64,000 nucleotides of DNA from Pedobacter cryotolerans (GTDB taxonomy: Bacteria > Bacteroidota > Bacteroidia > Sphingobacteriales > Sphingobacteriaceae), in NCBI RefSeq assembly GCF_005116475.1, contig NZ_SWBO01000007.1:1-64000 (forward strand), read 5' to 3'. Below the pieces are notes generated by a model. The model made no database searches. It was not told the DNA's origin and saw only the letters and a program-made list of their open reading frames with translations. Shown in pieces: positions 34,693 through 46,013 of the stretch. The position numbers and the translations under genes are program-made. Position 1 is the stretch's first letter. Every line of letters starts with the position of its first letter.

Positions 34693-36273
34693 TTATCGAA
34701 CGTATTTTTTAATTGCATCCCACAATATCCCATCATATTCATACACATCTGGTCTAAATTGTACTTTGCCGTTTTCCGCCCATGCGGTATAATAACCAAT
34801 TACAACAGCTACATTTTTTCGGGTAGCAAACCACGATGGCTTTAATCGAAAAACTTTTGTACTATCATTTTTCTTCGCCAATATTTTCTGAAATTGCTTA
34901 TTTCTATTGGTATCAATAGGCGGCAAATTTACTTCCATCCTTAGCTGATCATATTGGTACTTATCCTTTACCATCAACTCTGCAAATTTTAATGGGTTTT
35001 CTACCCGCACACAACCATGGCTAATTGCTCTATTTTTAAGCTTAAAACCATATTTATTATTGGTATCGTGTAAATAAATACTTGAGCTATTGTCGAAAAC
35101 AAATTTAAATTTCCCTAATGCATTCCCTTCACCAGAACCTTGCTTAAATGTAAAAGGTAATTTTTCTCTAGCGTATCTATTCCATTGTATGGTATCTGGT
35201 TCATAAATCTGTTTACCTTTATAATAAACCCTAATATTGCTATTAGATAGGTAATAGGGATCTTTTCTGGCCATCCAATAAATTTCACTTTGTGCAATAC
35301 TTACCGGAATATTCCAAACTGGATTAACCTGCACGGCGTTAAATACACTTACCAATTGTGGTGTTTCATGATTTTTTGGTTTATCATCTAAACTACCAGT
35401 TCTTAAAAAAGTTTTCATCCGTTCTGTGTAGGTTGCCTCTCTTTTACCGCCAACACATACATTCATGTGCGCTAAAGTATCATCTTTTTTAAACCATGTT
35501 AAAGAGAAATCTGGTATGTTTACCATTACAACTTCTTCAGTCTTTATGGGGATTTGCCACCGTAAACGCTCTAAATTTAATTTTATCTTTTGAATCGATA
35601 AATCATTTTCATCGCCCAAACTATCTCGGTAATGAGCCAGTAATTTTTTTAATTCTAAATAGCTTTTAGCAGTTGGTTGAGCATTTTTAAGTACTGCAAA
35701 CATATTTTTCGTTTTTAAAACAGAATCCAACATTAAACTATCTGGGCGTTTAACCTTAATATAATACCTATTAAAAATATTTCGAGGATTTATTACACCA
35801 TAATTCATAAATGTTGTATATCTCAATAGCGCATCGGCAGTTTTAATTTCTAATTCTGCAATTATTGGATAAACTTCGTCTATGCTCTTAAAATTATTGG
35901 CTTTTAACTTTTTTACTAGTGTTTCTAACTCATTAAACTTAAAAGATGCTGGATTTATTCCATCAGCTTTGCTAAATTGTAAGTAATTTAATAACGAATC
36001 AATTTCTCCATTTGCAAAAAAGCGAGTAATAAGAATTGGATTGTTTTTGTTAGATAGGTAAAAAGCTTTTGTAGTTTTAGGGTTGGACAAAGAACTGCTC
36101 AAATCGTCCAATTTTTTACTGAATATTGGATAATACGACAATGTATCAAATTTGTTATAGAGCTTGTAGTCGAAATGTTCAGCAAGTACAGTAGCAATCT
36201 CTGGTTTAGTGTTAAACCAACCACAAGAACTTAAAACTAAACATAAGCATAAAAAAAGTAGCGTTTTCTTCAA
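34693..36273 (-). CDS. YcbB-like L,D-transpeptidase (lipoprotein), second copy
   Basis: 526 residues. The lipobox is LVLSSC (Cys17). It has the same arrangement as the other YcbB-like protein: helical scaffold with the repeated YSNAL-type region (here LRYTTFMNYGVINPRNIFNR), an insert, and the YkuD domain with HDTNNKYGFKLKNRAISHGC; the HGCVRVENP motif has the nucleophile Cys. Although they share structure, the two paralogues differ widely in sequence, suggesting old duplication and different roles. Transcribed away from the his operon. Confidence 0.92.
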   Translation of the reverse strand: MKKTLLFLCLCLVLSSCGWFNTKPEIATVLAEHFDYKLYNKFDTLSYYPIFSKKLDDLSSSLSNPKTTKAFYLSNKNNPILITRFFANGEIDSLLNYLQFSKADGINPASFKFNELETLVKKLKANNFKSIDEVYPIIAELEIKTADALLRYTTFMNYGVINPRNIFNRYYIKVKRPDSLMLDSVLKTKNMFAVLKNAQPTAKSYLELKKLLAHYRDSLGDENDLSIQKIKLNLERLRWQIPIKTEEVVMVNIPDFSLTWFKKDDTLAHMNVCVGGKREATYTERMKTFLRTGSLDDKPKNHETPQLVSVFNAVQVNPVWNIPVSIAQSEIYWMARKDPYYLSNSNIRVYYKGKQIYEPDTIQWNRYAREKLPFTFKQGSGEGNALGKFKFVFDNSSSIYLHDTNNKYGFKLKNRAISHGCVRVENPLKFAELMVKDKYQYDQLRMEVNLPPIDTNRNKQFQKILAKKNDSTKVFRLKPSWFATRKNVAVVIGYYTAWAENGKVQFRPDVYEYDGILWDAIKKYVR

Positions 36274-36366
36274 TTTCGTTGATATATTAATTAATTATTT
36301 TATTCTTTTTTTAATTAAACTGTTCAATTTAAATGCCACATATTTTTTATTTTAATTTAACAAAGC

Positions 36367-36374
36367 TATATTTG
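36367..36374 (+). promoter_or_regulatory. TATATTTG -7 promoter element of the his operon
   Basis: TATATTTG at 36367-36374 matches the Bacteroidota TAnnTTTG element and lies about 42 bases ahead of the histidine leader peptide ATG. No clear -33 TTTG was seen. Function inferred from consensus and place. Confidence 0.5.
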
Positions 36375-36415
36375 CGTCATCTTCTCAATAAAATTACGGA
36401 AAGATAAGCAATATA

Positions 36416-36475
36416 ATGATCCAAGTTTTAAACCATCACGTACATTTACATCATCGCCATTGTGGCGATAGATAG
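36416..36475 (+). CDS. hisL: Histidine operon leader peptide (19 aa)
   Basis: ATG at 36416 opens MIQVLNHHVHLHHRHCGDR, stopping at TAG 36473-36475. Six of 19 residues are histidine, clustered in HHVHLHHRH. This is the hallmark of a leader peptide for transcription attenuation: ribosome stalling on the His codons would signal histidine shortage. The short frame lies 68 bases ahead of hisG, behind a TATATTTG promoter element. No sequence likeness to the enterobacterial hisL was assumed; the call rests on codon content and location. Confidence 0.8.
   Translation: MIQVLNHHVHLHHRHCGDR
36453..36469 (+). promoter_or_regulatory. Candidate attenuator hairpin overlapping the his leader
   Basis: ATCGCCA and TGGCGAT pair as a 7-base stem with a TTG loop, overlapping the last His codons and the end of the leader peptide. 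A ribosome stalled on the His codons would block this stem. A second, weaker GTTTT/AAAAC hairpin (36482-36497), close to a T5 run at 36500-36504, is a possible terminator. The alternative pairings were not computed. Confidence 0.45.
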
Positions 36476-36543
36476 ATATATGTTTTGTACGCAAAACGGT
36501 TTTTAAAACAGATTTAATATTCTTATTCCTAATTTTATATAAA

Positions 36544-37395
36544 GTGAAAACACTTAAAATCGCTATCCAAAAATCGGGTAGGTTAAACGAAAAATCAGTA
36601 GAAATTCTTAAAAATTGTGGTCTTTCTTTCGAAAACTACAAAAGTTCTCTAATTGCAACTGTTGCAAATTTTCCTCTAGAAATTCTCTTTTTAAGAGACG
36701 ATGATATTCCAGAATATGTACAAGATGGCATTGCCGATTTAGGTATTGTGGGCGAAAATGTAATCATAGAAGCGGGTGCAGATGTTGCTTATTTACAGCC
36801 TTTAGGTTTCGGTAAATGTACCCTAAAAATTGCCGTTCAAAGCACTAGTGATATCACCGAATTGTCGCAATTAAATGGCAAGGCAATTGCCACTTCTTAC
36901 CCTGTAATTTTACAAAAATATCTTACAGAAAATAACGTTGATGCGCAGATTAGAAACATCTCTGGCTCGGTAGAAATTGGTCCAGGTTTGGGCCTAAGCG
37001 ACGCCATTTTCGACATCGTTTCTACAGGCGGAACTTTAAAGAGTAACGGACTAAAAGCCTTCAAAAATGTTATGAGTTCTGAAGCAGTTTTAATTGCTAG
37101 CAAAGGGATGGAATTAAATCCTGAAGTGTTAGAATTGTTGCAAAGAATTCAATCTGTACTAAGAGCAAAAGCAACAAAATATGTGGTACTTAATGTGGCA
37201 AAAGAAAACTTGCAAGCCGTGGTAGATTTGTTGCCAGGCGTAAAAAGTCCTACCGTTGTTCCATTGTTCGAAGAAGGTTGGGTAGCTGTACATTCGGTAA
37301 TTGCTGAAGAAGATTTCTGGGAAAAAATTAATGGTTTAAAATTAGCAGGTGCTGAAGGAATTGTGGTAATGCCAATTGAGAAAATCATTACCTAA
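36544..37395 (+). CDS. hisG: ATP phosphoribosyltransferase HisG (long form)
   Basis: 283 residues with a GTG start. The catalytic domain includes KIAIQKSGRLNEKSVEILKN, the DLGIVGENV loop and the PRPP-binding segment DIVSTGGTLKSNGLKA. The C-terminal about 75 residues form the regulatory domain of long-form HisG (YVVLNVAKENLQAVVDLLPG), which binds histidine for feedback inhibition, and no HisZ is needed. It catalyses the first step of histidine synthesis, from ATP and PRPP. First structural gene after the leader peptide. Confidence 0.96.
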   Translation: MKTLKIAIQKSGRLNEKSVEILKNCGLSFENYKSSLIATVANFPLEILFLRDDDIPEYVQDGIADLGIVGENVIIEAGADVAYLQPLGFGKCTLKIAVQSTSDITELSQLNGKAIATSYPVILQKYLTENNVDAQIRNISGSVEIGPGLGLSDAIFDIVSTGGTLKSNGLKAFKNVMSSEAVLIASKGMELNPEVLELLQRIQSVLRAKATKYVVLNVAKENLQAVVDLLPGVKSPTVVPLFEEGWVAVHSVIAEEDFWEKINGLKLAGAEGIVVMPIEKIIT

Positions 37396-37464
37396 AAACA
37401 AAAAAAAATAGATTTAAACACGATAGTTAATATTAACTAATAGTTAAATTCAACACATAACATA

Positions 37465-38748
37465 TTGAAACTCTATAATTATAAAGATTTAACTCAACAA
37501 AAAATTAAAGAACTATGTTCTAGAAAAGTTGAGGATGATAATTTGATATTTTCAAGGGTGCAAAGCATCATTTCTACAGTAAAAACCGATGGTGATGCAG
37601 CGCTACTCTCCTATGCCGAACAGTTTGATAAGGTTAAATTAACCTCGTTATTTATTGGCAAAGAAGAGCTTGCTAGCATCGCCAAACAAATTCCTTTAAC
37701 AGTAAAAAACGCCATTGATGTCGCCTACCAAAACATCTATAAATTTCACCAAGCGCAGTTAAAAACTGAATCTAAAGTTGAAACAATGGAAGGTGTTGTT
37801 TGCTGGAGAGAAGCCAGAGCAATTGAAAAAGTTGGGCTCTATATTCCGGGCGGAACAGCGGTTTTACCAAGCACTTTTTTGATGCTTGGCATCCCTGCAA
37901 AAATTGCTGGTAGCAAAGAAATTGTAGTCTGTTCTCCTCCCCAAAGTGATGGCAAAATTAACTGCTACATTGCTTATGTTGCTACCTTGCTAAACATAGA
38001 AAAAGTTTACTTAGTTGGTGGTGCTCAGGCTGTCGGCGCAATGGCTTTTGGAACGGAAACAATTCCTAAAATTGACAAGATTTTTGGACCCGGAAATAGG
38101 TATGTAACCGAGGCAAAAAAGCTGGTGCAAAACACGGTTGCAATTGATATGCCTGCAGGCCCATCAGAGGTTTTAGTAGTAGCCGATGAAACTGCAAATC
38201 CTGCTTTTGTGGCAGCCGATTTATTAGCCCAAGCCGAACACGGAATTGATAGTCAGGCGGTGTTGGTTGCCACTTCAAAGAAATTAATTGAAGAGGTTAT
38301 TTTGGAAGTTGAAAAACAATTAGCTGATTTACCTAGAAAAGACATCGCTGCAAAAGCAATTGAAAATTCTTATATCATTTTCGCCGAAAACTTAAACGAT
38401 GCAATGGATTTCAGCAATGCTTACGCACCGGAACATTTAATTTTAGCGACAGACAATTTTGAACCATTAATCCCATTAATTATTAATGCAGGTTCTGTGT
38501 TTTTAGGCAACCTAACGCCAGAAAGCGCAGGCGATTATGCTTCGGGCACAAACCACACTTTACCTACAAGTGGTTTTGCAAGTGCTTTTTCGGGAGTTTC
38601 GGTAGATACTTTCTTAAAAAAGATCACTTTTCAGCACTTAAGCGCTAAAGGTTTACAAAACATTGGCAACACAGTTGAAGTTTTAGCAGAAGCCGAAGGT
38701 TTACAGGCACATAAAAATGCGATAAGTATTAGATTAAAGGAGATGTGA
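37465..38748 (+). CDS. hisD: Histidinol dehydrogenase HisD
   Basis: 427 residues with a TTG start (KLYNYKDLTQQKIKEL follows). The NAD and zinc regions are in place: VGLYIPGGTAVLPSTFLMLG, IFGPGNRYVTEAKKLV, DMPAGPSEVLVVADE and HGIDSQAVLVATS, with the catalytic YAPEHL motif later (NAYAPEHLILA) and the C-terminal zinc-binding HTLPTSGFAS. It oxidises histidinol in two steps to histidine. The 3' spacer before hisC carries short TCTCAAAT direct repeats. Confidence 0.96.
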   Translation: MKLYNYKDLTQQKIKELCSRKVEDDNLIFSRVQSIISTVKTDGDAALLSYAEQFDKVKLTSLFIGKEELASIAKQIPLTVKNAIDVAYQNIYKFHQAQLKTESKVETMEGVVCWREARAIEKVGLYIPGGTAVLPSTFLMLGIPAKIAGSKEIVVCSPPQSDGKINCYIAYVATLLNIEKVYLVGGAQAVGAMAFGTETIPKIDKIFGPGNRYVTEAKKLVQNTVAIDMPAGPSEVLVVADETANPAFVAADLLAQAEHGIDSQAVLVATSKKLIEEVILEVEKQLADLPRKDIAAKAIENSYIIFAENLNDAMDFSNAYAPEHLILATDNFEPLIPLIINAGSVFLGNLTPESAGDYASGTNHTLPTSGFASAFSGVSVDTFLKKITFQHLSAKGLQNIGNTVEVLAEAEGLQAHKNAISIRLKEM

Positions 38749-38829
38749 GAAGTTAGATATGAGATGTGAGAAATCAGAACGCTTCACAGTCTCAAATCTC
38801 ACTACTCAAATCTCAAATCTCAAAAAAAA
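38749..38829. repeat. Short direct repeats in the hisD-hisC spacer
   Basis: The spacer contains TCTCAAATCTCA-type units several times, and the reverse form GATGTGAGA next to the hisD stop. The same words recur at about 44606-44636 after hisIE (GATGTGAGATTTGAGATG). They are simple repeats that could form a hairpin; no gene here. Confidence 0.5.
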
Positions 38830-39900
38830 ATGGACATTAAAGATTTACAAAGAGAAAATATAAAAACCCTTAAGCCCTACTCTACCGCTAGAGATGAGTT
38901 TAAAGGACAAGCAAGTGTCTTTTTAGATGCAAACGAGAATAGTTTTGGCTCTCCTTTGCCAGCTAACTACAATCGTTACCCAGACCCATTGCAATTAGAT
39001 TTAAAAGATGCAATTAGCAAAATTAAAGGTGTGCCGATTGAAAACACATTTTTAGGCAATGGTAGCGATGAAGCAATTGATTTATTATACCGTGCTTTTT
39101 GCAATCCGGGAAAAGACAATGTCATCATCTTACCTCCTACCTACGGAATGTACGAGGTTTCGGCTAACATTAACGATGTGGAGATTAGAAAAGTTGATTT
39201 ATTGCCAAATTTTCAACTCGACTTAGAAAAAATTGCTGAAGCTATTGATGCAAATACCAAAATGATTTTCATTTGTTCGCCAAATAATCCTACTGGAAAT
39301 TCTATTAACCGAACAGATATTGAAACTATTTTAGCCAACTTTAAAGGTTTGGTGGTAATTGATGAAGCTTATATCAACTTCGCTAAACAGAAAACTTTTA
39401 TTCAAGAATTAACGGAATATGCCAATTTGGTTATTCTACAAACGTTTTCTAAAGCTTGGGGATTAGCAGCTTTACGTTTAGGAATGGCTTTTTCATCAAG
39501 ACCAGTTATTGACATTTTAAACAAGGTAAAACCGCCTTATAATATCAATCAGGCAACACAAGATTTGGCTTTGGCAGCTTTAGAAAACATCCAGCAGGTA
39601 AATGATTGGATAAAAATTACAGTTTCTGAAAGAGACAGATTGAGTAATTTACTCGCTAAACTTCCAATGGTTAAAAAAGTTTACCCATCTGATGCTAATT
39701 TTATTTTGGCACAGGTAGATGATGCTTTAGGAACTTACAATTTATTAGTAGATAAGGGCATCATTGTTCGCGACCGTTCAAAAGTATCGCTTTGCGAAGG
39801 TTGTTTAAGAATTACGGTAGGAACAGTTGAAGAAAATGATGAGCTTATTAGAGTATTAACCCCCCAACCCCCTAAAGGGGGAGCGGAAAACCCAGCGTAA
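38830..39900 (+). CDS. hisC: Histidinol-phosphate aminotransferase HisC, repeat-extended C-terminus
   Basis: 356 residues. It is a fold-type I PLP enzyme: [19 protein letters not shown] near the N-terminus, [28 protein letters not shown] (Asp binding PLP), [17 protein letters not shown] (Lys is the Schiff-base residue) and the C-terminal Arg in CLRITVGT. It makes histidinol phosphate from imidazole-acetol phosphate. The last dozen residues ([14 protein letters not shown]) are encoded by the left arm of a palindromic repeat and are not part of the normal enzyme. Stop at 39898-39900, four bases before the hisB ATG. Confidence 0.96.
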
Positions 39901-39964
39901 ATATATGGAGCAGAATAAAATAGACGAAGTACAAAAGTCCCCTTCAGGGGATTTAGGGGTTAGA
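39857..39964. repeat. 108-bp compound palindromic element at the hisC-hisB junction
   Basis: Left arm: TAACCCCCCAACCCCCTAAA then GGGGGAGC. Right arm: AAGTCCCCTTCAGGGGATTT then AGGGGTTAGA, roughly the reverse complement of the left. It encodes the tail and stop of hisC and, 48 bases from its left end, the ATG of hisB. A second copy of exactly the same length (42667-42774) lies at hisA-hisF with the ATG at the same offset. Confidence 0.85.
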
Positions 39965-41089
39965 GTATTGTTTATAGACCGTGATGGCACATTAAACATC
40001 GAACCAGATGATGAACAAGTAGATAGTTTTGCAAAGCTGAAATTTTATCCGAGATCGTTGTATTATCTTTCTAAAATTGCAACAGAACTAGATTTTGAGT
40101 TGGTAATGGTGACTAATCAAGATGGTTTGGGAACGCCAGCTAACCCTGAGGAAAATTTTTGGCCGATACACAACTTTATGCTCGATACATTTGCAGGCGA
40201 AGGCGTTGTTTTTAGTGAAATTGTAATTGATAGAACTTTTGCGAAAGACAATGCACCTACCCGCAAACCGCAAACAGGATTGCTAACTCATTATTTTAGT
40301 GAAGCTTACGATTTAAAGAACTCGTTCGTAATTGGCGATCGTTTAAATGATGTGATTTTAGCCAAAAACTTAGGCTCAAAAGCGATTTTTTTACGTCAGA
40401 ATGATGCTTTAGGAAGTGCAGAAGCTTTAGATAAATACGAAACACTTTCTGATGTAATTGCATTAGAAACTCAAAAATGGGAAGATATTTATACTTTTTT
40501 AAGAGCTGGAGCAAGAAAAGTTAATCACGTTCGTAAAACAAATGAAACAGATATTACAATTGGTTTAGATTTAGACGGAACAGGAAAAGCAACCATTAAA
40601 ACGGGTTTAAATTTCTTCGACCATATGTTAGATCAAATTGCTAGACACGGCAGTATGAATTTAGATGTGATTGCCGATGGCGATTTACATATTGACGAGC
40701 ACCATACCATTGAAGATACAGGAATTGCCTTAGGAGAAGCTTTTGCACAGGCTTTAGGCAATAAATTAGGCATAGAGCGTTATGGTTTTTGCTTACCAAT
40801 GGATGATTGCCTAGCACAAGTGGCTATAGATTTTGGTGGCAGAAACTGGATTGTTTGGGATGCAGAATTTAAACGTGAAAAAGTTGGCGATGTACCTACT
40901 GAAATGTTTTTCCACTTTTTTAAATCTTTTAGCGATGCCGCAAAATGCAATTTGAACATTAAAGCAGAAGGCGAAAACGAACATCACAAAATAGAAGCTA
41001 TCTTTAAAGCTTTTGCAAAAGCAATTAAAATGGCGGTAAAACGTGATGCAGAAAAAATGGTTTTACCGAGTACCAAAGGATTGTTGTAA
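39905..41089 (+). CDS. hisB: Bifunctional HisB (histidinol-phosphatase / IGP dehydratase), repeat-derived N-terminus
   Basis: 394 residues. Residues 1-20 ([20 protein letters not shown]) come from the palindromic element and precede the normal start region [10 protein letters not shown]. The HAD phosphatase domain (Asp25, Asp27) covers residues 21-190, with [16 protein letters not shown]. The imidazoleglycerol-phosphate dehydratase domain follows, with [30 protein letters not shown] (metal-binding His) and [11 protein letters not shown]. It catalyses steps 6 and 8 of the pathway. It remains in frame despite the added leader. Confidence 0.95.
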
Positions 41090-41146
41090 AACGGAAGATG
41101 TAAGATGGAAAAGGGATTTAGCAGGTTTGAAAAACTGACTTTGTAA

Positions 41147-41233
41147 AATAAACCTGATAGCAGTGAAAATGTTTTTATGTCAGTCTGAGCATAGTCGAAG
41201 ACCAATAAAAACATTGTAACGGATAGCAGGACT
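41147..41233. repeat. Dispersed repeat in the hisB-hisH spacer (AAACCTGATAGCAG family)
   Basis: AAACCTGATAGCAGTGAAAAT at the left and ATTGTAACGGATAGCAGGACT at the right border an inverted AATGTTTTTAT/ATAAAAACATT stem that encloses TCTGAGCATAGTCGAAGACC. The two borders closely match those of the repeat at 55205-55266, so both belong to one family carrying different inner sequences. Confidence 0.65.
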
Positions 41234-41279
41234 ACAGTACCAATGAAAAACTGACATTCATTTTCCAATAATTAATAAA

Positions 41280-41918
41280 ATGGAAGAAAATAAAATTAAC
41301 GAAAAGTCCCCTTCGGATGCCAAGGGGATAGGCATCATAAACTACGGCGCAGGAAATATTTTCTCCTTAACCGCAGCTTTAGAAAGGCAAAATATAACTT
41401 ACGGAATGGTTAATACAGAAGCTGATTTAGAGAAATACAGTCACATTATTATTCCTGGTGTTGGTCATGCTGGTGCTGCGATGAAAAAACTGGAACAAAC
41501 CGGATTGGTGGGTGCAATTAAAGCTTTAACAAAACCAGTTTTAGGTATTTGTGTGGGTATGCAGTTAATTACACAACATTCTGAAGAGGGAGATGCTAAT
41601 CTTTTGGATATCATCCCGTTAAAAACAAAATTATTTGATAAGAATTTAGGGATAAAAATTCCGCACATGGGGTGGAATAATGTTGATTTTAAAAACAACT
41701 TACTCTTTGAAGGTGTTAATTCTGATACACAATTTTACTTCGTACATTCTTATTTTATTGAATATAACCCTACTTTTGATATCGCGGCTGTAAATTATGG
41801 CAACAAGTTTTCGGCGGCAATACAAAAAGATAATTTTTACGGCGTTCAGTTTCATCCAGAAAAATCTGGCGAAGCAGGCGAACGCTTATTGAAAAACTTC
41901 TCAAACCTTAGTTTATAA
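41280..41918 (+). CDS. hisH: Imidazole glycerol phosphate synthase glutaminase subunit HisH
   Basis: 212 residues. The first 17 residues (MEENKINEKSPSDAKGI) are repeat-derived and resemble the added HisB leader; the normal enzyme begins at IGIINYGAGN. The class I glutamine amidotransferase triad is present: Cys in PVLGICVGMQL, His and Glu in YGVQFHPEKS. It produces ammonia for HisF. It stops one base before the hisA ATG region. Confidence 0.95.
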   Translation: MEENKINEKSPSDAKGIGIINYGAGNIFSLTAALERQNITYGMVNTEADLEKYSHIIIPGVGHAGAAMKKLEQTGLVGAIKALTKPVLGICVGMQLITQHSEEGDANLLDIIPLKTKLFDKNLGIKIPHMGWNNVDFKNNLLFEGVNSDTQFYFVHSYFIEYNPTFDIAAVNYGNKFSAAIQKDNFYGVQFHPEKSGEAGERLLKNFSNLSL

Positions 41919-41919
41919 A

Positions 41920-42666
41920 ATGTATATAATTCCAGCAATTGATATTTTAGACGGAAAAGTTGTCCGCTTACGTGAAGGCGACTATAACCAGAAAACTGAA
42001 TACGATGTTTCTATCGAAGAAATGATTGAGCGTTACCGTTCTAACGGGACAGATTTTATTCATATTATTGATTTAAATGGCGCTAAAGGCGATTTCAGCA
42101 ACCAGAAAACTTTGTTTGACATCATTAAAAAAACAGAGATGCGGGTGCAGTATGGTGGCGGAATTAGAACCATTGAACAAGTAAATAATTTATTGGATGC
42201 AGGTATCCATCGTGTTATTGTTGGTACGCAAGCCATTAGCAATCCAGATTTTTTACCTGATTTGAGTAAGGCTTTTGCTAAAAAAGACGATTATGCCAAC
42301 AGAATTGTAATTGCAATTGATGTTTTGGATGAGGTAATTAAATACTCGGGTTGGATGGAAAGTTCTCCAATCAAATTAATGGATTACGTGGATAAATGCT
42401 TGGCTTTAGGGTTTTTCCGCTTTTTATGCACTGATATTAGTAAAGATGGGAAATTAGGTGGCGCAGCGGTAGATTTGTATAAAAAACTGCTTGACCATTC
42501 GCCAATGATTAAATTAATCGCATCTGGCGGAGTAAGCTCAATGGAAGATATTTACGAATTGGCAAAATACGATATTAGAAGTGTGGTGGTTGGTAAAGCC
42601 ATTTATGAAAACCGAATTTCTATTGAAGAGATTAAGGATTGGAATTTGAAGATGTTGTCAAGTATA

Positions 42667-42669
<3 letters not shown>
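41920..42669 (+). CDS. hisA: ProFAR isomerase HisA
   Basis: 249 residues, a TIM barrel with the half-barrel repeat expected: MYIIPAIDILDGKVVRLREG (catalytic Asp8), QYGGGIRTIEQVNNLLDAGI, and the second half FLCTDISKDGKLGG (second catalytic Asp) and IASGGVSSMEDIYELAKYD. It isomerises the aminoaldose to the aminoketose in step 4. Its stop codon TAA (42667-42669) is also the first three bases of the 108-bp palindromic element. Confidence 0.96.
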
Positions 42670-43911
<1,242 letters not shown>

Positions 43912-43923
<12 letters not shown>

Positions 43924-43945
43924 CCCCCTAAAGGGGGAATTACCC
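43912..43945. repeat. Palindromic repeat at the end of hisF
   Basis: TTAGAACCCCCTAACCCCCT then AAAGGGGGAAT: left-arm type copy that encodes the last residues (RTP) and the stop of the hisF fusion and fills part of the hisF-hisIE spacer. Confidence 0.75.
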
Positions 43946-43984
43946 CTCATTTAGGAATAGCAAAAACATAAATAAAAGCAAAAA

Positions 43985-44608
43985 ATGGTTAACGAAAATA
44001 TAGCATCAAGCCAGATAGACTTTGGCAAAACTCCCCCTTCAGGGGGTTGGGGGGTTCCCGTAGTAATACAAAACGAGCAAACTTTAGAGGTTTTAATGTT
44101 AGGCTATATGAATGCCGAAGCATTTGAGAAAACACAAGCTGAAGGGAAAGTAACTTTCTTTTCTCGCTCTAAAAACCGTTTATGGACTAAAGGCGAAGAA
44201 AGCGGAAATTTTCTTTTCGTAAAATCTATTCATATTGATTGCGATAATGATACCATCTTAATTAAAGCTAATCCGGTTGGACCAACTTGCCATACAGGCA
44301 GTAGAAGTTGTTTTAAAACTGATTATAACCAAAACTTTATTTTTGAGTTAGAAAATATTATTAATGATCGATATGAAAATCCTGTAGAAGGCTCGTACAT
44401 CAATAAAATGAGAGCTAAAGGCTTAAATAAAATAGCACAAAAAGTCGGCGAAGAAGGTGTAGAAACAGTAATTGCAGCTTTAGCAGAAACTGAAGAAGAT
44501 TTAATTGGGGAAGCAGCAGATTTACTTTTTCACTTGACTTTTTTATTGAAGGAAAAAGGGTTATCAATTAAAGATATTGCTAAGAAATTAGAAAGCAGAC
44601 ATAAGTAG
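43985..44608 (+). CDS. hisI: Bifunctional HisIE with an in-frame repeat insertion
   Basis: 207 residues. The normal beginning, IDFGK followed by VPVVIQNEQTLEVLMLGYMN, is interrupted by TPPSGGWG, encoded by a palindromic repeat at 44030-44056. The PRA-CH domain (HisI) continues with SRSKNRLWTKGEESGN and the zinc-binding CHTGSRSCF. The HisE PRA-PP pyrophosphohydrolase domain follows from about residue 118 (NKIAQKVGEEGVETVIAALA). It performs steps 2 and 3. Last gene of the his operon. The insertion lies before the first conserved strand, so activity is probably kept. Confidence 0.94.
   Translation: MVNENIASSQIDFGKTPPSGGWGVPVVIQNEQTLEVLMLGYMNAEAFEKTQAEGKVTFFSRSKNRLWTKGEESGNFLFVKSIHIDCDNDTILIKANPVGPTCHTGSRSCFKTDYNQNFIFELENIINDRYENPVEGSYINKMRAKGLNKIAQKVGEEGVETVIAALAETEEDLIGEAADLLFHLTFLLKEKGLSIKDIAKKLESRHK
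44030..44056. repeat. Palindromic repeat inside hisIE
   Basis: ACTCCCCCTTCAGGGGGTTG then GGGGGTT: 27 bases, a multiple of three, translated as TPPSGGWG between IDFGK and VPVVI of HisIE. Confidence 0.75.
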
Positions 44609-44683
44609 ATGTGAGATTTGAGATGTTAGAAGTGAGACCACTCCAATTGCAACTCGTACTCCTTATTATGCAATACGAATAAA

Positions 44684-45064
44684 ATGCTCAAATACTTATC
44701 ATATCTTAACTTAGTTTTCGCAATAGCTTTCGCTGTAGTTTTAAGGAGCAACAAAAATTATATTGATTTAGCTTTTCTAATTCCGTCAATTCTTTTTAAC
44801 TGGCTGTCCTTATATCAATTAATTAAAAATAAATTAAGGTTTGATAAATGGCATTTGTATGTTGGCTATTTAAGTGTTTTCATAAGTATTATTTCCACAA
44901 TCGTAACAATAAAAATTATTTTTGGAGTATTCTCAAATACAAGCATTTACCTTGGACCTTCAATTTATTTATTTCTAGCAAGGCAACTATTTGATATTTC
45001 TATAATATTCCAATTTATTACAGCTTTAAAAGAAAATAAAAAAATATTAAGCCGTTCTAATTAA
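44684..45064 (+). CDS. Small four-span membrane protein, unrecognised
   Basis: 126 residues with about four hydrophobic segments: YLNLVFAIAFAVVL, LAFLIPSILFNWLSLYQLI, YVGYLSVFISIISTIVTIKI and SIYLFLARQLFDISIIFQFI. A short basic tail (KENKKILSRSN) closes it. It lies 75 bases after the his operon and 12 bases before the WD40 gene on the same strand. No known family recognised. Confidence 0.55.
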   Translation: MLKYLSYLNLVFAIAFAVVLRSNKNYIDLAFLIPSILFNWLSLYQLIKNKLRFDKWHLYVGYLSVFISIISTIVTIKIIFGVFSNTSIYLGPSIYLFLARQLFDISIIFQFITALKENKKILSRSN

Positions 45065-45076
45065 GTTAAATTTAAG

Positions 45077-45976
45077 ATGCTAAAACATTTAAAAACACTT
45101 TCTGGCCACCAAAACCCTGTTTATGCTTTAGCAAATGCTGATGAGAATGATATTTTCTTTAGTGCAGGTAATGACAAGGGTGTTGTAGAATGGTCGTTAG
45201 CTGAATTGGCTTTCGTAAAAGTGAAAACTCCTGTACAAAGTTCGGTTTACAGTTTACTTTGTTATAATAATTTACTATTTATTGGCGAAAGAAGTGGTGC
45301 CTTTAGCGTTTATGATTTAACTAAACAGGAAATCATCACCAGAATTAATGCGCATCCAAAACCAATTTTCGATATTAAAGTAACCAAAAGCAAAAACGAA
45401 TTGTTAACCACAGGCGAAGATGGTTCAGTTGCAGTTTGGTCGCTATTAGATTATTCAGAAATTTATCGTTTTCAGGTGGCTTATGATACGGTGAGGTGTA
45501 TCGGCATTTCGCCAGATGAAACTGAAATCGCCTTTGGCTGTAAAGATCATTTGATTAAAATTTACAACTTGGCTGATTATAGCTTAAAACAGACTTTAAA
45601 AGGTCATTCTTTACCAGTTACTTCCTTAGCTTATCATCCCTCTGGTAAATATTTAATTTCTGGAAGCAGAGATGCACAGTTAAAAATATGGAATTTACCC
45701 AACTACGAACTAGTTCAAACCATTCCAGCGCATTTATTTACCATTTACAATATTGCTTTTCACCCAAGCCTACCCTATTTTGCAACAAGCAGCCAAGATA
45801 AAAGCATTAAACTTTGGGATGCTGAAAACTTTAAACTTTATAAAATTTTAAGTTTAGAAAAAGGCGAATTTGGGCATACACATTCTATTAATAAAATTAT
45901 TTGGAGTAAAGACGGAAAACATCTAATTTCTACAGGAGATGATAGAAAAGTAATGATTTGGGAAATAGAGGATTAA
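45077..45976 (+). CDS. WD40 repeat protein
   Basis: 299 residues made up of about seven WD40 blades, without signal peptide. Visible units include LKHLKTLSGHQNPVYALANA at the start, GEDGSVAVWSLLDYSE, LKGHSLPVTSLAYHPSGKYL with SGSRDAQLKIWNL, and SSQDKSIKLWDAENFK. It would form a single cytoplasmic beta-propeller for protein interaction. It is followed 37 bases later by the YceH gene. Confidence 0.93.
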   Translation: MLKHLKTLSGHQNPVYALANADENDIFFSAGNDKGVVEWSLAELAFVKVKTPVQSSVYSLLCYNNLLFIGERSGAFSVYDLTKQEIITRINAHPKPIFDIKVTKSKNELLTTGEDGSVAVWSLLDYSEIYRFQVAYDTVRCIGISPDETEIAFGCKDHLIKIYNLADYSLKQTLKGHSLPVTSLAYHPSGKYLISGSRDAQLKIWNLPNYELVQTIPAHLFTIYNIAFHPSLPYFATSSQDKSIKLWDAENFKLYKILSLEKGEFGHTHSINKIIWSKDGKHLISTGDDRKVMIWEIED

Positions 45977-46013
45977 TTTTTAAATTTAAAATCATTAGAT
46001 ATATCTTAGCCTT

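Follow-up and report, generated by a model that had tools for sequence, protein, structure and literature searches.

A REP-like 108-bp doublet at his gene borders in Pedobacter cryotolerans and its possible kinship with an in-frame DUF559 nuclease unit

Short palindromic repeats of bacterial genomes are usually explained by RAYT transposases. The Pfam name of the protein domain DUF559 still describes it as being of unknown function. REPs of the GTAG and CGTC types lie near the 3′ ends of genes, supply stop codons and occur in frame within genes (PMC3733652). In P. fluorescens, the spacing within REPINs peaks at 71 and 110 bp (PMC3116915). For DUF559, published reports describe a Caulobacter protein, VsrA, that is required for the DNA-damage response in cells without cytosine methyltransferase (PMC12907096), a DUF559 that adjoins a transposase in three repeated segments acting as recombination hotspots in Legionella pneumophila (PMC12308824), and the assignment of a DUF559 gene to the EDxHD homing endonuclease family (PMC9403480). 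No tie of DUF559 to palindromic repeats was found in the literature searched, which took in few subscription journals. The same searches returned no published REP-like family linked to a DUF559 nuclease and no description of DUF559 residing in frame within essential genes.

The window analysed here is a 64,000-nucleotide stretch of P. cryotolerans DNA (contig NZ_SWBO01000007.1, positions 1 to 64,000), and its his operon carries two copies of a 108-bp element (Table 1). The sequence-only reading had reported that these copies agree in length, arm structure and ATG offset, and they do: both are 108 nt long, align without gaps at 83% identity (E 2.2e-26) and place the ATG at offset 48 (39905 and 42715). 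Each copy is an inverted arm pair flanking an ATG-bearing spacer, in which the left arm, A, has the sequence TAACCCCCCARCCCCCTAAAGGGGGA and the right arm, B, is a variant of A on the opposite strand. Copy 1 contributes the final 13 codons and the TAA to hisC and 20 opening codons to hisB, and copy 2 contributes the TAA of hisA and 20 opening codons to the ORF downstream. The proposal that each copy closes one gene and opens the next was correct to this extent, but the ORF opened by copy 2 is a DUF559–HisF fusion and not a plain hisF. When folded as single-stranded DNA, copy 1 was unexceptional (z -0.95) and copy 2 modest (z -2.24), and the argument is therefore not rested on folding. The hisB–hisH spacer of the operon contains an Rfam Flavo-1 RNA match at 41146–41237 (+; 55.4 bits, cut-off 42), and by eye similar spacers are present at hisB–hisH in several relatives.

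Table 1. Elements, arms and coding features of the his operon region, in window positions.
Feature	Position	Strand	Basis or remark
Element copy 1, 108 bp	39857..39964	+	hisC–hisB junction; sequence comparison
Left arm of copy 1, A orientation	39857..39883	+	Core CCCCTAAAGGGG at 39869–39880; read in frame as the HisC C-terminal end
ATG and first 20 hisB codons, element-borne	39905..39964	+	ORF reading
Right arm of copy 1, B orientation	39935..39964	-	Core/arm search
Possible decayed arm	41304..41329	-	In the hisH N-terminal extension; tentative, by eye
Element copy 2, 108 bp	42667..42774	+	hisA–hisF junction; first bases are the TAA stop of hisA
DUF559–HisF fusion ORF, 402 aa	42715..43923	+	ORF translation, Pfam
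DUF559 (PF04480) domain, nuclease-like fold	42811..43125	+	Pfam, profile and structure searches
Closing arm, B orientation	43142..43168	-	Separates the DUF559 domain from the HisF core
Third arm pair of the operon	43914..44056	+	hisF–hisIE junction; arms 43914–43939 and 44031–44056

A third full-length relative (106 nt, 75% identity) lies on another contig at the trpG–trpC junction (C1:12468–12573), where it closes a glutamine amidotransferase gene and opens an indole-3-glycerol phosphate synthase gene; the name trpG is a reading from the GATase match plus the neighbouring gene. A local origin, by duplication or gene conversion confined to the his junctions, would account for two copies that are 2.8 kb apart and alike over their full length; the sequence-only reading had named such a local duplication as a refutation. 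The trpG–trpC copy refutes a duplication confined to his, and together with the 68 arm cores found genome-wide it leaves this explanation with scarcely any probability.

These 68 cores are exact occurrences of CCCCTRAAGGGG in the 4.25-Mb genome, in which the reversed control pattern occurs 0 times. With the E value given above, these counts rule out chance similarity of the two copies. The stretches around all 68 cores were fetched (a recount including the window again gave 68) and genes were called with a custom codon-usage script, so that gene starts are approximate; random positions for comparison were drawn from the fetched stretches and not from the whole genome. A stop codon in the A sense lies within 30 nt of 31 of the 68 arms (random 2.7%, p 3e-30), and in 16 of those 31 the TAA is followed directly by CCCC, such that the arm's own edge forms the stop. 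A gene start in the B sense is found at 13/68 arms (random 5.0%, p 2.7e-5), while the opposite-sense controls on the same data gave 2/68 and 6/68, and only 7/68 arms are internal to genes compared with 72% of random positions. The genome-wide search called for with the first description thus returned a preference for gene borders rather than its absence.

All 14 arm pairs less than 150 nt apart are convergent (A then B), with an arm spacing of 28–109 nt in this genome. The joining of a stop to a start, which holds for the his copies, is seen in just 7 of these 14 close pairs; two join two convergent stops, three have the stop side only, one is internal to a single ORF and one fits none of these. 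The internal pair lies in frame within a GcpE/IspG protein. At that locus (L039, 2147–4117), another doublet is found at the stop codon of the same gene.

Orthologous junctions were compared in the his operons of 19 same-genus genomes and one genome of another genus, and relatives indeed show junctions without the element. The hisC–hisB gap is 26–31 nt in 12 of the 19 same-genus genomes versus 112 nt in the window; at the remaining eight loci it is 35–170 nt, with arms in G135 and G034 and a possible degraded one in G105. In G125, the closest genome by HisF (95%), the hisC–hisB junction reads GGAAAGATATAATGAAAAAAGTATTG and hisB begins at a short native ATG. Compared by eye with this state, the copy in the window substitutes about 19 native bases instead of being simply inserted; the native stop and start have given way to the element. 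A clean target-site duplication, as would be expected of a MITE of a DDE transposon, was not seen at the junctions compared by eye. G135, which is more distant (HisF 89%), has a related hisC–hisB insert with the common stretch ATATGGAGCAGAATAAAA, and therefore loss, transfer or repeated insertion must have occurred. Among 10 genomes inspected by eye at trpG–trpC, G135 and G150 have arm pairs with different interiors and the other eight, including G125, have no arms. Element-free hisA–hisF and other junctions often hold other palindromic repeats, of the type GTCATTGCGAGGCACGAAGCAATC (L184–L202, by eye).

The his and trp sites, and the arm pairs with different interiors at trpG–trpC in G135 and G150, speak for an intercistronic element that serves the host and is under selection for the stability of transcripts or for coupled translation within amino-acid operons. 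Against this, the element is patchy among close relatives, 12/19 of which have a plain hisC–hisB gap and 8/10 no trpG–trpC arms, and the arms also lie at many unrelated genes; a host-serving origin is judged improbable. The view of the element as a repeat that redraws gene borders and leaves the operon intact is supported, but it was overstated: stop supply and in-frame REPs had already been published (PMC3733652), and a stop is joined to a start in only half of the close pairs. Given the published behaviour of REPs and REPINs (PMC3733652, PMC3116915), the border behaviour is of a known kind, and ordinary REP-like behaviour can explain the border preference without any nuclease.

A more interesting explanation comes from two features beside copy 2 that the sequence-only reading overlooked, namely a DUF559 nuclease domain and a third arm. 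The fusion ORF consists, in order, of the element-encoded start, the DUF559 domain, a B arm and HisF. Its PF04480 match scores 109.4 bits (curated cut-off 20.6; E 1.1e-31), and among named genomes its DUF559 part is most similar to proteins of Pedobacter species, the best three at 82–86%. The structure of the domain is predicted with confidence (pLDDT 91.7), and in a Foldseek search this model comes closest to 3HRL (E 1.5e-8), followed by homing endonuclease I-Bth0305I (3R3P; E 6.5e-4). Profile searches agree, with E values of 6.6e-31 and 3.1e-5, respectively. Across 44 DUF559 sequences, the invariant columns include E25, D53, E64, H70 and D79. In the alignment with 3R3P, E64 and D79 are conserved, A and W stand opposite D53 and H70, and E25 falls outside the match.

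DUF559 shares with the EDxHD (Vsr-like) enzyme I-Bth0305I a related catalytic fold, lineages that are largely sorted by site, a patchy presence and some broken copies. Two invariant DUF559 residues are different in the 3R3P chain, and DUF559 departs from the EDxHD enzymes in being framed by REP-like arms, in staying in the host protein and in its lack of a surrounding intron or intein: no intron family reached its gathering score within window positions 36000–46000, and no intein domain was found in the scanned fusion ORFs (Pfam, E 1e-5; 10 + 5 ORFs).

Hairpins lie at most of the DUF559 loci searched. When named genomes were scanned with the DUF559 portion of the fusion protein, 48 loci were obtained, mostly from Bacteroidota; other labels were Chloroflexi, Cyanobacteria, Fibrobacterota, Ignavibacterium, Caldithrix and Alphaproteobacteria, often attached to MAGs and uncheckable. 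To these were added 28 of 29 loci from a search of the family (best-scoring matches rather than a random draw; L139 was dropped for want of the motif and L025 is the window itself), three others of the source genome and the window. At least three loci of this set of 80 are duplicated under two names (L080/L150, L081/L132 and L110/L146, the last with identical flanks). In a search of the 300 bp to either side of DUF559, 76/80 loci had a pyrimidine-rich hairpin on one side or more and 60/80 on both; the 48 named loci alone gave 44 and 31. In contrast, control ORFs of at least 100 aa, taken from these 80 loci at a distance of more than 1.2 kb from the DUF559 gene, have a hairpin on any side in 16/161 cases and on both sides in 1/161. 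Hairpin density is ~1.1 per DUF559 flank versus 0.036 per equal length farther off in the same loci. The hairpins are also oriented, with 60 A and 18 B forms on the left flank and 55 B and 19 A forms on the right, the remainder having no assigned form. L026 and L027 of the source genome are free-standing DUF559 genes with nearby hairpins of other sequence types.

DUF559 is also found in frame within other host genes. Pfam confirmed fusions to HisF (the window and L082), to LeuS (L024 of the source genome and L126, with a second place in LeuS in L243), to methylmalonyl-CoA mutase (L135), to an Lhr-type helicase (L130), to methionine synthase (MetH; L104 of Flavobacterium cucumis, L109 of a Chloroflexi MAG, L242 and L244), to the TruB C-terminus (L236 and L239), to the TrpA N-terminus (L098) and to DNA methylases (L101 and L102). 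The source genome has a single LeuS match at E <= 1e-60 (L024, G000:C29:6826-10140), and this match carries the DUF559 insert; the domain stands in frame ahead of the LeuS editing-domain match. A LeuS match was obtained in 19 genomes of the genus sample; three of them have the insert (G000, G164 and G153) and 16 do not, 14 of the latter being established from inspected junctions and two from split matches. The leuS gene of G156 (L217) contains a short in-frame stretch resembling the outer edges of both LeuS-type arms, which is likely to be the excision scar of a lost DUF559 element.

In-frame residence of this kind recalls two described systems. Rickettsia palindromic elements (RPE) are likewise palindromic repeats read in frame in protein genes (PMC3733652), but they have another sequence, and the part of that source available describes no nuclease gene linked to them. 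REPs of RAYT subclass 2.4 lie in frame inside their own transposase gene (PMC6006769), which encodes an HUH transposase, and these REPs are GT[AG]G-footed, unlike the arms described here.

A tree of DUF559 domains was built from 104 loci, of which five had no usable domain and nine of the remaining 99 were dropped as identical, leaving 90 tips. Host labels were assigned by sequence motifs, with five loci that lie in other host genes being counted as free-standing; the host-site label changes 6 times on this tree compared with at least 33 times in 500 shuffles. The 28 HisF-type domains fall within a clade of 33 that also has five free-standing ones, and the mutase and helicase types are nested in a group containing 12 LeuS types. 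Across genera, a given site thus belongs for the most part to a single lineage, and moves to new sites are rare. Such site-bound lineages would be compatible with homing and also with plain inheritance plus loss. Distances between HisF-linked DUF559 domains correlate with HisF distances at 0.42 over 19 genomes and at -0.09 between genera, five of the 24 fused genomes having been missed by the motif search and left out.

The number of arm cores per genome follows the HisF-type fusion. Of 151 family genomes, 133 have a HisF match, and in 24 of those 133 HisF is fused to DUF559. The median core count is 42.5 with the fusion (n=24) versus 1 without (n=109; Mann–Whitney p 3e-14), and 0 of 20000 within-genus permutations reached the observed value. 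DUF559 is present at hisF in 23 of the 28 genomes with at least 9 cores (21 fused, two adjacent) versus 3 of the 123 with fewer, a count that also includes the 18 genomes without a HisF match. As the genomes are related, the association is partly phylogenetic. Three genomes have the fusion yet just 4–6 cores (G054, G091 and G027). A stop interrupts 5 of the 24 fused matches, within the DUF559 domain itself in two (G091 and G126); these stops would agree with the decay of a homing gene, but what they display is only decay.

A rival reading, in which the arms are REP-like repeats moved by another enzyme and DUF559 is a passenger between them, draws on five genomes that have 12–41 cores and no DUF559 at hisF (G125, G094, G014, G072 and G146), in one of which, G125, an arm pair is nonetheless found at hisF–hisIE. 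It also draws on the LeuS-type nuclease of the source genome, whose related arms are scarcely amplified and occur at five sites, two of them at LeuS itself. Against it, hairpins of several sequence types lie at 76/80 DUF559 loci, and core numbers track the HisF-type fusion within genera. Of 22 further DUF559 matches in 20 fetched stretches, two have CCCC cores at a distance of up to 600 bp, and both are at hisF (L231 and L235). Weighing these points, the passenger reading is considered unlikely, though it is the strongest of the rivals. A general rule that every DUF559 amplifies its own arms in its genome was also tried; it is unsupported for the LeuS type.

The remaining rival is that these are ordinary REPINs mobilised by a RAYT (Y1 HUH transposase). 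The elements resemble REPINs in being inverted doublets of short palindromes that are present in many copies, lie near gene 3′ ends and can supply a stop, and the source genome has four Y1_Tnp matches. Core count and Y1_Tnp count are weakly correlated over the 151 genomes (rho 0.26, p 0.001), but this correlation disappears once genomes with DUF559 at hisF are set aside (rho 0.09, p 0.31), and a Y1_Tnp match is absent from five genomes that have 12–52 cores. A RAYT gene flanked by CCCC arms was sought at the four Y1_Tnp loci of the source genome and none was found; arm-type hairpins lie within 1.5 kb at 0/4 of them. The arms also differ from REPs in lacking a constant tag of the GT[AG]G or CGTC type at the hairpin foot: 13/68 arms have GT[AG]G or its complement, at scattered positions up to 16 nt from the core, and 4/68 have CGTC/GACG. 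The gene linked to these arms is instead a DUF559 nuclease, and a RAYT-based origin is regarded as very improbable.

The reading favoured here, with moderate confidence, is that the 108-bp element is a REPIN-like, non-autonomous doublet and a short relative of a mobile unit made up of an arm, a DUF559 ORF and an arm, which does not use a RAYT. The doublet consists of two inverted REP-like arms of ~25 nt with a short spacer between them. The full form would carry the DUF559 nuclease ORF between its arms, and at hisA–hisF this nuclease would have become the N-terminal part of HisF, while short copies dispersed to other sites. Short copies would last chiefly where genes meet, because an arm provides TAA at its outer edge, and because the left arm, the spacer ATG and the right arm each provide an open frame, such that the upstream gene ends and the downstream gene starts. 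The nuclease may cut DNA at arms or at empty sites and thereby provoke copying through repair, as homing endonucleases do. The doublet structure, its placement, the element-free junctions, the link of DUF559 to hairpins, the trend of arm number with fusion and the largely site-sorted lineages are observed by comparison of sequences and genomes; from these we infer that the arms may be moved by the nuclease.

More broadly, it is about an even chance that these loci represent a class of mobile DNA of their own, whose Vsr/EDxHD-like DUF559 nuclease, framed by cognate REP-like hairpin arms, would home in frame into protein genes without splicing, using its arms as tolerated peptide linkers, stops or starts, and would seed REPIN-like short forms at gene borders. 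The targets of homing would, as part of that same evenly weighted proposal, include essential genes such as leuS. The window offers a simple test bed, with full and short forms in one genome and element-free junctions in close relatives. If the proposal is true, a second, nuclease-based partner would account for palindromic repeats that have no neighbouring RAYT, DUF559 would gain a role, and a mobile gene could persist within an essential gene by keeping its frame, without any splicing.
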